Under the pieces are notes generated by a model that had not been told where the DNA came from, searched no databases, and saw only the letters and a program-made list of their open reading frames with translations. DNA of 64,000 nt from Bacilli bacterium (GTDB lineage: Bacteria; Bacillota_I; Bacilli_A; RF39; UBA660): assembly GCA_017438635.1 (NCBI GenBank), contig JAFRUZ010000005.1:1-64000 (forward strand), in the 5' to 3' direction. Shown here one piece after another: positions 58,935 to 64,000 of this stretch. A program made the position numbers and the translations under genes. The first letter of the stretch is position 1; the number at the start of each line of letters is the position of its first letter.

Positions 58935-59045
58935 ATGAGAAAATCTATTAATAAATTAGATTACGATTTTTACATTAAAACACTAATTCGCCCTTTATCA
59001 AGATTTGATAAATTTTATTTAATGTCTAAAAATGATGCTAAGTAG
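58935..59045 (+). CDS. 36-residue basic small protein
   Basis: ATG at 58935 has a good ribosome site (gaggtgg, 5 bases spacing) and its own promoter; the 3' end overlaps a terminator hairpin. It reads MRKSINKLDYDFYIK, then TLIRPLSRFDKFYLMSKNDAK (split here), with many Lys/Arg and aromatic residues, so it may form an amphipathic helix. There is no known family. The stand-alone promoter-ORF-terminator layout suggests a true small protein. The frame is open further upstream but lacks a ribosome site there and covers the promoter. Confidence 0.55.
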   Translation: MRKSINKLDYDFYIKTLIRPLSRFDKFYLMSKNDAK

Positions 59046-59073
59046 CCCATCGGGGCATAGTGTCATTTTTTTT
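59028..59073 (+). terminator. terminator overlapping the mini-gene end
   Basis: Imperfect hairpin of aaatgatgcta...gccc with gggg-catagtgtcattt, then eight T. The first arm encodes the last residues of the small protein. Confidence 0.6.
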
Positions 59074-59093: not shown

Positions 59094-60536
59094 ATGGAAG
59101 TAGAAGAATTAAAAGAAAGATTATTTAACAACCTAAGTAATTATACACAAGAAGAAAAAACTGAAATAGAAAAAGCTTATGAATTAGCAAAAAATCTTCA
59201 TAGTAAACAGTATAGACAAAGTGGTGAACCATACATAACACATCCTATTGAAGTAGCTATAATTCTTTCAGAAATGAAAGCTGATAAAGACACTATTTGT
59301 GCTGGATTGTTACATGATACAGTAGAAGATACCGACATAACATTAAATGAAATAGAAAAAATGTTTAATAAAGATGTAGCTATTCTAGTAGATGGAGTAA
59401 CGAAAATAAGTAAATTAAACTTTTCTAGCAAACAAGACAGAAGTTTAGCAAATACTAGAAAAATAATTGCCAGTTTAACAGAAGATGTAAGGATAATCAT
59501 TGTAAAGTTAGCAGATCGTCTTCACAATATGAGGACTTTACAATATAAAACAGAATTTAAGCAAAAAGAAAATGCTCTAGAGACTATGGAAATATTTGTG
59601 CCACTTGCATACTATATTGGGGCTTATAGAATCAAAAATGAACTTGAAGATCTATCACTTAAATATTTAAAACCAGAAGAGTACAAAAAAGCAGAAGAAA
59701 CACATCTAATGGTCCAAGAAGACAGTAAAAAGTGCCTTGAAGAAATGTTATTTAATATACATACAATACTAAATGACAATAATATTCCCAATGAAATAAA
59801 ATCAAGGACAAAAAACATTTATGGTTTATACAAAAAACTAAGTGAAGGTAATAAACTTGAAGATATACATGATCTATTATCATTAAAAATAATGGTAGAT
59901 GAAATAAATAGTTGTTATTTAACCTTAGGTCTAGTACATAGCAAGTATAATCCGATAAATTATAGATTTAAAGACTATATTTGTAATCCAAAGACTAATA
60001 TGTACCAATCACTTCACACAACAGTTTTTGGAGAAGATGATAGATTAGTTCAAACACAAATAAGAACATTTGATATGGACGAAATAGCATCATATGGATT
60101 AACGTCTTACTGGCATCAAAATAAAGATGCTGCCAGAGAAAAAATGCAACATGATTTAAAGGAAAAGTATCAGTTTTTTAAATCATTAACAGAAATAAAT
60201 ACAACTTTTGGAGATAATCAAGAGTTTATCACTCAAATAAAAAGGGAATTATTCACAGACAAAATATATGTATATACGACAAAAGGAGACGTAATAGAAT
60301 TGCCAATAGGGGCAACACCTATAGACTTTGCTTATAGAATACATACTGATATTGGTAATTCAATGATTGGTGCAATCGTAAATGATGATAAAGTATCCAT
60401 ATACGATGAATTACATAATAAAGATAGAGTAAGAATCATAACCAGCAGTGTAAGTATGGGACCAGGAAAAGATTGGGAAGAAAATGCTAAAACAACGAAT
60501 GCTAAAAAGAAAATAAGAGAATTTAATAGAAAGTAG
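59094..60536 (+). CDS. RelA/SpoT homologue (RSH), short form
   Basis: The 480-residue protein has an HD hydrolase domain (YITHPIEVAIIL, LLHDTVEDTD, LADRLHNMRTL), a synthetase domain (KSRTKNIYGLYKKL, RFKDYI, NMYQSLHTTV) and a TGS domain (about 385-450, IYVYTTKGDVIELPIGATPIDFAYRIHTD). It ends there: the helical, Cys-rich and ACT domains of long RSH (about 730 residues) are missing. The catalytic Glu of the synthetase (EIQIRT in relatives, E323 in Rel_Seq) appears as Gln320 in VQTQIRT, and the Arg of the DLLxxR segment is Lys (DLLSLKIMV). Hydrolase residues look intact. It may thus mainly degrade (p)ppGpp (inference). Confidence 0.88.
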   Translation: MEVEELKERLFNNLSNYTQEEKTEIEKAYELAKNLHSKQYRQSGEPYITHPIEVAIILSEMKADKDTICAGLLHDTVEDTDITLNEIEKMFNKDVAILVDGVTKISKLNFSSKQDRSLANTRKIIASLTEDVRIIIVKLADRLHNMRTLQYKTEFKQKENALETMEIFVPLAYYIGAYRIKNELEDLSLKYLKPEEYKKAEETHLMVQEDSKKCLEEMLFNIHTILNDNNIPNEIKSRTKNIYGLYKKLSEGNKLEDIHDLLSLKIMVDEINSCYLTLGLVHSKYNPINYRFKDYICNPKTNMYQSLHTTVFGEDDRLVQTQIRTFDMDEIASYGLTSYWHQNKDAAREKMQHDLKEKYQFFKSLTEINTTFGDNQEFITQIKRELFTDKIYVYTTKGDVIELPIGATPIDFAYRIHTDIGNSMIGAIVNDDKVSIYDELHNKDRVRIITSSVSMGPGKDWEENAKTTNAKKKIREFNRK

Positions 60537-60546
60537 GGGGTACCTA

Positions 60547-61815
60547 GTGAAAAGATTATGTGATGAATTAAACGTTGATAAAAGTATAAAAAAAGTAAAT
60601 GCTACTAGCATAGAAGATGCAATAATAAAAACTTATAGTTGCAATGAGTATAACTTTTATCTAAATTCTGAATTAATAGATGTTAATAATAGATTTAGAA
60701 TATTTAATTTCAATGGTATAGATTATATATGTAAAAAATCAAATCTTAAAGATACAAAAAATGAGATTAAACTAGCATCAAAAGCACAATCTCTTATCGA
60801 CAATACTAAAGTTGATAATTATACTGTTAAAGTCATTATGCCTAAAGTTTTTGAAATTGATGGTGATTGTTACATAGTAACAGAGTTTAAGGGTGATAGT
60901 TTACAAGAGTTATCATATCATAATGCTAATACAAAACTATTTACAGAAGAAACACTTTTCAATATTTTAGATAGACTTATGAAAGTAGGTATAGTATATA
61001 GAGGTTTTTTACCTAGAAATACTATTTTAAAAGACAATGTTATCTATTTGCTTGATTGGGAAGACACCATACTTTTTCCAAATGTTAATGAAACAGGTAT
61101 TAACATATTGTGGTTAACAAATTTTTTATTAAATTGGAGTTATTTGTATGATGCATCAATACTTAAAAATAAAATAAAGACTAGTAATATTACATTTAAA
61201 GAAGAACCAGATTTATTAAAATATGAAATAAAATTTGCTTCATGGGCAAAACTTTCGTTACATAAAAAAAGACTAAGAAAGAAAATAATAGATACAGTTT
61301 TATTTGCAGAAAAAAAATTATCTCACAATTATAAAGAAGAATTTGCTATAATGCCAAATGGTATGGCCCATTTAGTCTCTGATTTATTTAATTCAGACAT
61401 AGACGTTTTATTTGACATATCTAGTTTCGTCATAAGGCAAAACAATGAAGAAAAGTATTATGAAGCAATAAGATTTTTAAGTTCTTTAATCATAAAACAG
61501 TATTATGATCACAAAAATATCCATAAATACGCATTGATAATTATTTTAATGATTTTTGAACTAGCCTCAAAAGAGAATATTAATAGTATTACAATACCTA
61601 AAAAATTTATAAGCGAAGATGAATTCATTAATAACAAAAGTATTATGTCTTTCAAGTTAGTAAAAGAATATCTATATAAATCTCATAAAAGTTTTGAAAA
61701 ACAATTAGAAATAACAATTGGGAATTTAATTAAAAATTATAATGGCACTACAGTAAAGACAGAAAACATAAGTGACTTAGCAAATTATTTGTTATCTTTT
61801 AAAGAAGAGGATTGA
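60547..61815 (+). CDS. kinase-fold protein (APH/choline-kinase-like), catalytic Asp replaced
   Basis: The 422-residue protein starts at a GTG with ribosome site aggggg. An APH-like N-lobe has the strand YICKKSN (Lys63/64), the helix Glu73 (KNEIKLASKAQ) and the hinge YIVTEFKGDSL. The catalytic loop reads YRGFLPRNTIL, where active APH-type enzymes have HGDLxxxN: Gly, Leu and Asn are kept but His is Arg and the catalytic Asp is Phe153. The metal-binding Asp is kept (LLDWEDTIL). So it looks like a pseudokinase or unusual ATP-binding protein. Residues 200-422 are an all-helical domain that I do not recognise. First gene of a tight cluster of four. Confidence 0.6.
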   Translation: MKRLCDELNVDKSIKKVNATSIEDAIIKTYSCNEYNFYLNSELIDVNNRFRIFNFNGIDYICKKSNLKDTKNEIKLASKAQSLIDNTKVDNYTVKVIMPKVFEIDGDCYIVTEFKGDSLQELSYHNANTKLFTEETLFNILDRLMKVGIVYRGFLPRNTILKDNVIYLLDWEDTILFPNVNETGINILWLTNFLLNWSYLYDASILKNKIKTSNITFKEEPDLLKYEIKFASWAKLSLHKKRLRKKIIDTVLFAEKKLSHNYKEEFAIMPNGMAHLVSDLFNSDIDVLFDISSFVIRQNNEEKYYEAIRFLSSLIIKQYYDHKNIHKYALIIILMIFELASKENINSITIPKKFISEDEFINNKSIMSFKLVKEYLYKSHKSFEKQLEITIGNLIKNYNGTTVKTENISDLANYLLSFKEED

Positions 61816-61819
61816 TAAT

Positions 61820-62206
61820 ATGAGTGAAATAATATATAAAGATAAGTATTTTCAAGTAGTACAAACAGAGGAATACCCAAATGTTCCAGGTTGCTACACA
61901 ATTATAGAAGTTGACAATGATATAAGCGCAGATAAAACTAAATCTTTAGCAGTTTTAGAGAAAAAAATAAGGGATAAATTAGCAGAGCTAAACATTGATT
62001 TAGTAGGAATATATAAACAAGAAAAAGAAAATAACTTAAATGTAATAATTATTCCTTATCATATTGATAGGCTTCAAGAATTAAATATTAATCCAGATGA
62101 GTATCAACCATATATAGAAAAGTATTTAACTAGTTACGACAATGATAATAGTAATAAAGCTATTTATTATGCTAAAGAAATGAAGGAACATTTAGAAAAG
62201 AGTTGA
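61820..62206 (+). CDS. HIT-like-fold protein (128 aa), motif degenerate
   Basis: The start IIYKDKYFQVVQTEEYPNVPG, then CYTIIEVDND, resembles the first strands of HIT-domain proteins (acidic D-x-x-[FY]-x-[VA], then PG and a strand). The middle is a helix (KKIRDKLAELNIDL) and a strand LNVIIIPYHIDR; the family triad HxHxHxx is reduced to a single His (IIPYHID). The protein is similar in layout to the next gene. Lies five bases after the kinase-fold gene. An AMP-lyase or transferase activity is unlikely; a binding role is inference. Confidence 0.45.
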   Translation: MSEIIYKDKYFQVVQTEEYPNVPGCYTIIEVDNDISADKTKSLAVLEKKIRDKLAELNIDLVGIYKQEKENNLNVIIIPYHIDRLQELNINPDEYQPYIEKYLTSYDNDNSNKAIYYAKEMKEHLEKS

Positions 62207-62212
62207 TAAATA

Positions 62213-62824
62213 ATGAAAAATTTAATTGGAAGCAAAATAGAAGTATATTCTTTAAATGAACTGCCGAAAGCGCCTGAGGATTTAAAATATTTTGCCTGTA
62301 TCGGTGGAAATAAAAACTATGAATGTTTTTTAGAATCTAGAAGTTTATCAAGAGCACAGTTTATGAAAAAATATGAAAATGAAGTAGATATTTGCCATAA
62401 ACCGATCTATGAAGATGAAAATTTAATTATACGACAAGATGCTCAGTATCCATTACCAGGTTTTTACATCATTGCTACAAAAACAGGGAAAAGAACAATA
62501 GCCGATATAGATACTAATTTATATCAAAAGGGTATGGAATATGCATTTTTAATCAAAACCATTTTACAAGAGAGTTTCAAGATTAAAAAAGTATATATAT
62601 ACTATGATGAGCACTATCATAAACCATCTTCTGTACACTTTTGGGTCATGCCAATATATGAAGATGTATTAAATGAGAATAATTTAAAAGCTACGATATT
62701 TAGCAATGATATATGGAAATACTTAGATCTGTTCGAATTCAAAGATACAAAAGAAGAAATATATAAAATAAATGAAGAAATGAAAAAAATAATAAATAAG
62801 GGAGTGAATGAATATGAACGTTAA
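62213..62824 (+). CDS. HIT-like-fold protein (203 aa), partial motif
   Basis: After an N-terminal region of about 65 residues, a HIT-like core begins at IYEDENLIIRQDAQYPLPGFY, written here in part as YPLPGFYIIATK, with a helix (YQKGMEYAFLIKTIL) and the strands VYIYYDEHYHKP and SSVHFWVMPIYED. The family signature HxHxHxx appears as HFWVMP: the first His is kept, the second is Trp. An HYH pair lies just before it. This is close to a nucleotide-binding HIT protein but not a standard one. It overlaps the decarboxylase gene by 11 bases. Confidence 0.5.
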   Translation: MKNLIGSKIEVYSLNELPKAPEDLKYFACIGGNKNYECFLESRSLSRAQFMKKYENEVDICHKPIYEDENLIIRQDAQYPLPGFYIIATKTGKRTIADIDTNLYQKGMEYAFLIKTILQESFKIKKVYIYYDEHYHKPSSVHFWVMPIYEDVLNENNLKATIFSNDIWKYLDLFEFKDTKEEIYKINEEMKKIINKGVNEYER

Positions 62825-64000
62825 TAAATACTTTTCTAAAAATAAAGACGAAAGTATTAAACAAATTAATAACATTCTTGACACATTAAATAAAAATGTA
62901 AAAACAAAAATAACAAATGATGAAAAACCAATACTAGATGGGGGCGTAAAACTATATAATAAGTTTTTAAAGGATAAACATATTCCTCAAGAACCTAGAA
63001 ATATCAAAAGTGTACTTTCTGACTTTTCAAATTATTTTGAAAGAAGTGTTATTTGGGAAAACCCAGGTACTATGATAAATATCACACCTCCTGCAAATAT
63101 TCCAAGTATAGCAACTGCATTTTATGCTTCACTATTTAATCCGAATTTTGCACAAGATGAACCATCTGGTTATCTGATGACTACAGAATTATTAGTTTCA
63201 AAATATTTGTCAGAATTGTGTGAATGGGATATTAAAAAATCAAGAGGTATATTTACTTTTGGAGGAAAAGGAACTAATCTATATGCTGTAAAAACAGGTA
63301 TTAAAAAAGCTATTCCAAATGTAATTGAAGAGGGAATTACTGGCAAAGAAATAGTAGTTTTCTCTAATGAAAAATCACATCCTTGTCACCGTGAAGTTTG
63401 TGATTGGTTAGGTTTAGGTAAAAATGCATGTCATAGATTATCAGTTGATGAAAATGGTCAAGTAAATTTAGAGTTACTTGAAAAAGACTTAAGGAAAGCA
63501 TTAGATGAAGGAAAAATAATAGGATGTATAATCTTGAATGGTGGAACTACTAACGAAATAATTGTTGACCCAATAAAACCTGTATATGAACTTAGAAATA
63601 AACTAGTAAAAGAGTATAAATTAGACTATATTCCTCATATACACATTGATGCAGTAATCGGTTGGGTCTGGTTAATGTTTAAAAACTACGACTATAATAA
63701 AAATGCTTTAAAAATGACAGAAACAGAATACAAAAAGATACATTCATTATGCAAAAAAATATCAGAAGTAAAATATGCTGATTCTTTTGGAGCAGATTTT
63801 CATAAAACAGGTTTCTGTCCATATGTATCTAGTATATATATGGCAAAAAACTACGATGATGTAATGAAATTAGGCAATAAAACAGATAAAGGTGTTGAAA
63901 ACTTAAGTTTCGGAGAGTATTCACCATTTGAATACACTTTAGAGTTAACTAGATCATGTGTTGGCCCTGTAGCGGCATATACAGCACTAGAAACTTTTGG
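62814..64000 (+). CDS. group II PLP-dependent decarboxylase-like enzyme (partial, runs off the end)
   Basis: The start ATG at 62814 overlaps the previous gene and has the ribosome site gggagtg. At least 395 residues are visible. The fold matches glutamate/tyrosine/DOPA-type decarboxylases: GIFTFGGKGTNLYAVK (substrate and PLP-phosphate loop), the Asp279 of HIHIDAVIGW that holds the PLP ring, and the Schiff-base Lys331 of SFGADFHKTGF. Members make amines or act on non-amino-acid substrates. The substrate here is not predictable. Last gene seen of the cluster with the kinase-fold and HIT-like genes; the 3' end is outside. Confidence 0.8.
   Translation, partial: MNVNKYFSKNKDESIKQINNILDTLNKNVKTKITNDEKPILDGGVKLYNKFLKDKHIPQEPRNIKSVLSDFSNYFERSVIWENPGTMINITPPANIPSIATAFYASLFNPNFAQDEPSGYLMTTELLVSKYLSELCEWDIKKSRGIFTFGGKGTNLYAVKTGIKKAIPNVIEEGITGKEIVVFSNEKSHPCHREVCDWLGLGKNACHRLSVDENGQVNLELLEKDLRKALDEGKIIGCIILNGGTTNEIIVDPIKPVYELRNKLVKEYKLDYIPHIHIDAVIGWVWLMFKNYDYNKNALKMTETEYKKIHSLCKKISEVKYADSFGADFHKTGFCPYVSSIYMAKNYDDVMKLGNKTDKGVENLSFGEYSPFEYTLELTRSCVGPVAAYTALETF

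Follow-up and report, generated by a model that had tools for sequence, protein, structure and literature searches.

A Bacilli operon joining a HIT protein and a viperin-like radical SAM enzyme to tRNA synthetases: a possible pathway for a nucleotide-derived synthetase inhibitor

The window analysed here is a stretch of 64,000 nucleotides (positions 1 to 64,000 of contig JAFRUZ010000005.1, assembly GCA_017438635.1) from a Bacilli bacterium. Its final genes are the front part of an operon, the remainder of which lies past position 64000 on the contig (G000:C14, 91373 bases). Within the window all of the features described are on the plus strand. A leader open reading frame (ORF) of 36 amino acids (58935..59045) has a ribosome-binding site, and its stop lies inside a terminator-like hairpin followed by a T run (59031..59073, folding energy -14.6), an attenuator candidate directly before the gene for a short RSH (RelA/SpoT homologue; 59094..60536, 480 amino acids) with HD, RelA_SpoT and TGS domains and the motifs HDTVED, RFKD and YQSLHT. 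There follow a kinase-like protein (60547..61815), the two related proteins HIT1 (61820..62206) and HIT2 (62213..62824), and a group II pyridoxal phosphate (PLP) decarboxylase (62814..64000), which runs on to contig position 64478. The initial annotation had described these four genes as tightly packed behind the RSH gene, and the gaps of 10, 4, 6 and -11 bp bear this out. The genes are real, but as a unit the four are incomplete, since extension of the contig beyond 64000 reveals an HD phosphohydrolase (contig 64462-65205), a viperin-like radical S-adenosylmethionine (SAM) enzyme (65214-66083) and two tandem tyrosyl-tRNA synthetases, TyrRS1 (66146-67414, 422 amino acids) and TyrRS2 (67701-68897), with a T-box between them (67471-67660). 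Gaps from the decarboxylase to the HD gene, on to the radical SAM gene and on to TyrRS1 are -17, 8 and 62 bp. The last of these holds a promoter-like sequence, from which TyrRS1 may also be expressed separately, such matches being no commoner than in shuffled sequences.

The part of the operon that recurs elsewhere is the pair of HIT2 and the radical SAM gene. A scan of genome contigs with HIT2 as a single-sequence query gave nothing, while an alignment query gave ten loci, all in metagenome-assembled genomes titled Bacilli, Clostridia or Erysipelotrichaceae, whose readable isolate names suggest animal gut. The family's radical SAM gene adjoins HIT2 in all ten fetched loci and shares an operon with it in the window, so that the two occur together in 11 of 11. 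An aminoacyl-tRNA synthetase (aaRS) gene lies at most 200 bp from this pair in eight of the 11: TyrRS1 in the window, asparaginyl-tRNA synthetase (AsnRS) in four loci (L041, L045, L046, L049) and phenylalanyl-tRNA synthetase (PheRS) in three (L043, where alpha is cut by the contig start, L044 and L047). A further locus, L048, stops just past the radical SAM gene, and its genome carries a cluster-type AsnRS fragment at the end of a contig. Companion genes in some loci encode an NT5C-type HAD protein (fused to HIT2 in L048 and L049), an S51 peptidase, a nucleoside phosphorylase or a HAD protein. The exact four-gene order of the window's end, whose conservation the initial annotation had proposed as a test, was not found in relatives, but its modules recur.

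In seven of the eight loci the cluster-adjacent synthetase is a second copy (Asn type 4/4, Phe type 3/3). AsnRS is present twice in G338, G056, G727 and G728 (one a fragment), three times in G195 and once in the window genome (G000). PheS is present twice in G730 (one a fragment), G731 and G732 and once in G729, G733 and G056. TyrRS is present twice in G000, G018 and G003, three times in G031 and G021, and once in G040, in each of the five Asn-type genomes (including G728), in G732 and in G733; G729 and G730 have one each, split over two frames, and G731 has one plus a weak match. Phylogenetic trees place cluster AsnRS (5 rows) apart from housekeeping AsnRS (6 rows), cluster PheS (2 rows) apart from the rest (6 rows), and the TyrRS1/2 type (8 rows) apart from the others (12 rows), each split at 100/100; for the Tyr and Phe trees the tree tool issued a long-branch warning. 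A more general rule, by which any aaRS near an RSH or PLP gene would be such an extra copy, was rejected, as the MetRS of G039 and the LeuRS of G058 are single copies; G032 has two MetRS.

HIT2 reaches no Pfam family above cut-off (15 bits against the HIT cut-off of 21.5), yet the structure prediction that the initial annotation had suggested yields a model (pLDDT 85) with a HIT fold (Foldseek E 1.7e-5; Z 13.2, root-mean-square deviation (rmsd) 2.7, 119 aligned residues). Instead of the HxHxHxx triad the protein has [SNC]xHxW, in which the central His alone is retained (11/11 homologues) and the outer positions hold Ser or Asn (Cys also in the pattern) and Trp, these being Ser140 and Trp144 in the window. 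All 11 homologues keep His142, Trp144 and Glu133. The ExxxxxHxHxKxx motif of the MccH clade is also absent: Glu133 lies one residue farther, the first His is lost and Trp replaces Lys. HIT1 has lost all three triad His, with Asn74 at the central position. A change of the central His of MccH to Asn abolishes activity, as described in the excerpted text of PMC7157772, and since HIT1 has Asn here and HIT2 keeps His142, HIT1 is predicted to be inactive and HIT2 is possibly active. The earlier description of both as HIT-like proteins with broken triads thus holds for HIT1, but not fully for HIT2. Elsewhere, at L027 (G183:C8, 4934-6349, minus strand), three HIT-like genes stand in tandem, and their triads, judged by eye, are the variants HLHIW, VHYH and HFHVQ.

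The radical SAM enzyme has the CX3CX2C motif (CFLNCPGC at 24). A model of the relative from L041 (pLDDT 84) is nearest to viperins (Z 27.4, rmsd 2.1, 246 aligned), with SuiB as the next family (Z 23.0). In a PDB sequence search PqqE came first and viperins next, and for the window copy other radical SAM models outscore the viperin ones, TIGR04053 at the top and likewise under cut-off. Two viperin lysines (mouse 220 and 247), which we take to bind the triphosphate, are replaced by Cys168 and Gln198 in alignments read by eye; if that role holds, the substrate is probably other than a plain nucleoside triphosphate.

The decarboxylase matches PF00282 at 2.8e-12 with both Lys331, the PLP lysine, and Asp279 present (numbered from the ATG at 62814), as the initial annotation had stated. 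The kinase-like protein has weak sequence matches only (NCBIfam Bud32 9e-4; a kinase alignment in PDB sequences, E 0.007). Its reported loss of the catalytic Asp is upheld with a corrected position, the HRDxKxxN alignment placing Gly153 there and Phe at 154, with Asn158 and Asp170 retained; the sole full homologue, in G031, shares the loss. G031 is also the one other genome seen in which a kinase-like protein and a decarboxylase stand alongside TyrRS. It matches the window genome in its flanks, RSH and TyrRS1-TyrRS2, with another filling between them: a transketolase, a HAD protein, a decarboxylase, a carbamoyltransferase, a 343-residue protein with no Pfam match, a ROK kinase and the kinase-like protein. 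Comparison of the two gene contents suggests that decarboxylase, kinase-like protein and TyrRS pair are one module and HIT1-HIT2-HD-radical SAM another. Counting the window genome itself, the kinase-like protein was found in 3 of 243 family genomes (G174 matching only weakly and in part), HIT2 in 5 of 243 (G183 and G251 resembling general HIT proteins) and the PLP decarboxylase in 5 of 98 genomes; the radical SAM profile matched 6 of 386 (G024 and G255 more distant and with no HIT2 in the stretch read) and the HIT2 profile 3 of 395 class genomes (G554 weak). A mobile origin was considered and rejected, HIT2 having no match among viral contigs, plasmids or phages, and the eight loci scanned for tRNA genes held none. 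Downstream of TyrRS2 lie a CYTH-like protein just under the Pfam cut-off (contig 68941-69513), for which a triphosphatase role is possible, and two ABC transporter genes (contig ~69743-73200), for which a role in export is possible.

The window genome carries the short RSH as a second RSH, the full-length one being encoded on contig 2, and the same arrangement is seen in many family members. We compared 24 short-RSH loci, namely 21 of about 34 short-frame matches and three from other scans. A script found a terminator at most 60 nt upstream in 19 of them, 18 of which also had a leader ORF, whereas of 70 control genes whose gaps measured 120 bp or more, four had a terminator and one of these a leader too, the other three sitting at Rfam T-boxes. 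The leaders are rich in Cys, which makes up 35 of the 585 residues of the 18 leaders, a number equalled by none of 5000 random small-ORF sets. Tyr is not significantly enriched in the window's leader (p 0.30), and the Asn enrichment of the G338 leader (p 0.001, uncorrected for about 20 leaders) is a lead only. In the leader region of the RSH gene, Rfam searches below the gathering score gave no credible match. The T-box between TyrRS1 and TyrRS2 scores 107 bits in the window genome and 94.2 bits in G031, with UAC, a Tyr codon, read by eye at the specifier position in both. Attenuation of resistance genes is known in Bacillus subtilis (excerpt of PMC9226507).

Further variation was seen around these elements. 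In L045, L046 and L049 leader-like small ORFs with no terminator precede the NT5C gene, some with a CS[CS]-rich stretch like that of the RSH leaders (by eye). Behind the short RSH of G001 (L072, L073) and G010 (L078) lie variable operons with S66 peptidases, a radical SAM protein, a PfkB kinase, a glutamine-synthetase-like protein and, in G001, a 354-residue AsnRS-like protein. In L074 (G031:C34) a YcaO protein (Pfam match) and a C39-like peptidase protein stand there, and the layout of L078 (G010:C21) is similar by eye. The site after the short RSH may be an island hotspot.

We tentatively propose, at somewhat less than an even chance, that the operon encodes a pathway for a nucleotide-derived aaRS inhibitor, with self-resistance through a spare copy of the target. 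The best clue to this comes from the matched spare synthetases, and the TyrRS counts agree with it, all five Asn-type genomes having one TyrRS while G000, G031 and G021 have two, three and three. In such a pathway the viperin-like enzyme would modify a nucleotide, on which HIT2 would act through His142 as a nucleotidyl transferase or hydrolase, with HIT1 as its inactive partner; the HD protein, or elsewhere the NT5C-type HAD protein, would take off phosphate, and in the window variant the decarboxylase would provide an amine. The product would resemble an aminoacyl-adenylate and block one synthetase, that for Tyr in the window and for Asn or Phe in the sister operons, and the extra synthetase would be the producer's insensitive copy. 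TyrRS2, behind its Tyr-specifier T-box, would go up when tRNA-Tyr is uncharged, and the leader attenuator would turn the operon on upon translation stalling. We infer these substrates, the product, its target and toxicity, resistance and induction from the gene content and its arrangement. Second, insensitive aaRS copies are established in producers of albomycin, mupirocin and indolmycin (excerpt of PMC9437257), which resemble the present case in that a further, diverged copy of a single aaRS stands next to the operon; they differ in that here one core pairs with three aaRS types. Microcin C-type peptide-nucleotide antibiotics, against which the HIT protein MccH confers immunity (excerpt of PMC7157772), are similar in combining an altered-triad HIT protein that has an upstream Glu with a cluster tied to aaRS inhibition. 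In contrast to them, the window operon shows no MccB-type adenylyltransferase or precursor peptide and has a viperin-like radical SAM enzyme instead, and the third triad residue is Trp in HIT2 and Lys in MccH. An additional hint may come from S66 peptidase genes downstream of three other short RSH genes, S66 being the peptidase family to which MccF, an immunity protein for microcin C, belongs.

Several points weigh against this proposal. Its product, toxicity and resistance are what we infer rather than observe. Both TyrRS of the window genome belong to the cluster, and a search for a third gave none in a genome 79.6% complete; because of this incompleteness the window TyrRS is only a candidate extra copy, and one of the two may be the housekeeping enzyme. 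G031 has the TyrRS pair with neither HIT2 nor the radical SAM gene, and on both counts the Asn and Phe types make a stronger case than the Tyr type. L050 has the HIT2-radical SAM pair and no aaRS, L042 has no aaRS other than a single PheRS of housekeeping type, some 4.5 kb off, and the decarboxylase and kinase-like protein have no fixed role in the core. The suggestion of the initial annotation that the neighbourhood represents an undescribed pathway with nucleotide ligands is nevertheless supported by the HIT2 fold, the viperin-like neighbour and the nucleotidases of the sister operons, and literature searches returned no description of this gene combination. Its notion of a regulated complex, in which two apparently inactive proteins of nucleotide fold would control a single PLP enzyme, is not supported, the recurring core being HIT2, radical SAM enzyme and aaRS, with no decarboxylase in the ten other loci.

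The cluster synthetases could instead be biosynthetic, making aminoacyl-AMP or aminoacyl-tRNA of Tyr, Asn or Phe as an intermediate on which HIT2 and the radical SAM enzyme act. The direct adjacency of aaRS and core, the AsnRS-like protein behind the short RSH of G001, and the use of aaRS-like proteins in making bioactive molecules (excerpt of PMC9437257) would all fit; we nevertheless consider this unlikely, as the synthetases in the clusters have their full length (AsnRS 463-468 residues, TyrRS1 422 residues and, in L044 and L047, PheRS with both subunits), something that an enzyme activating only the amino acid could do without, and one operon of G195 holds two AsnRS copies. It is also improbable, in our estimation, that the operon serves translation stress, with a leader-controlled RSH, a spare aaRS, HIT, HD and nucleotidase enzymes acting on alarmones, for instance (p)ppGpp and Ap4A, and a radical SAM enzyme that makes or removes a signal nucleotide. 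The leaders and terminators of 18 of 24 short RSH genes and the T-box ahead of TyrRS2 are consistent with such a function, as is the best VIA-align match of the HIT2 model, Ap4A phosphorylase (Z 13.2, level with other HIT proteins). Most sister core loci, however, are not behind an RSH gene: L041 and L048 are, while L042-L047, L049 and L050 have none beside the core in the stretch covered. The decarboxylase, carbamoyltransferase and transketolase of the window and G031 variants also look biosynthetic.

Two narrower explanations each start from one enzyme. Prokaryotic viperins (pVip) share the radical SAM motif and the fold of the L041 model, and PADLOC pVip models score 76.6 and 61.9 bits; an anti-phage viperin system with accessory genes is still very unlikely, given that curated NCBIfam viperin models fall far under cut-off (TIGR04278 27.9 bits against 450 for the window copy, NF038283 70.4 against 180 for the G195 copy), the two lysines are replaced, the gene neighbours differ, PADLOC matches no other defence system beyond weak HD hits on Cas10 and Cas3, and the matched aaRS genes would be left unexplained. 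We regard as scarcely probable an amino-acid decarboxylation cluster of the tyramine type, as in Enterococcus durans, whose cluster includes tyrS (excerpt of PMC3315439). The proximity of PLP decarboxylase and TyrRS in the window and in G031 recalls it, but the window decarboxylase is of another subfamily (35.5 bits with the enterococcal tyrosine decarboxylase model, cut-off 905), no amino-acid antiporter was recognised among downstream ORFs to contig ~77 kb, and the operon has additional core enzymes, which elsewhere occur without the decarboxylase.

The proposal of a nucleotide-derived aaRS inhibitor extends to a broader claim, which we consider possible but doubtful: that the viperin-like enzyme and single-His HIT core marks nucleotide natural products of a new class, made by uncultured Bacillota of the gut, in which the matched aaRS (Tyr, Asn or Phe) is each variant's target and expression is tied to translation stalling through leader attenuators and T-boxes. 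The HIT2-radical SAM pair is a short marker that can be used in searches. If the proposal is true, the spare synthetase would reveal the target before the chemistry, which is rare for clusters of uncultured gut bacteria, here with genomes of about 1 Mb; viperin-like enzymes would have a place in small-molecule biosynthesis; and AsnRS, PheRS and TyrRS would be natural antibiotic targets. Independently of this, short RSH genes behind leader-ORF attenuators would connect translation stalling with (p)ppGpp control in a way open to testing.

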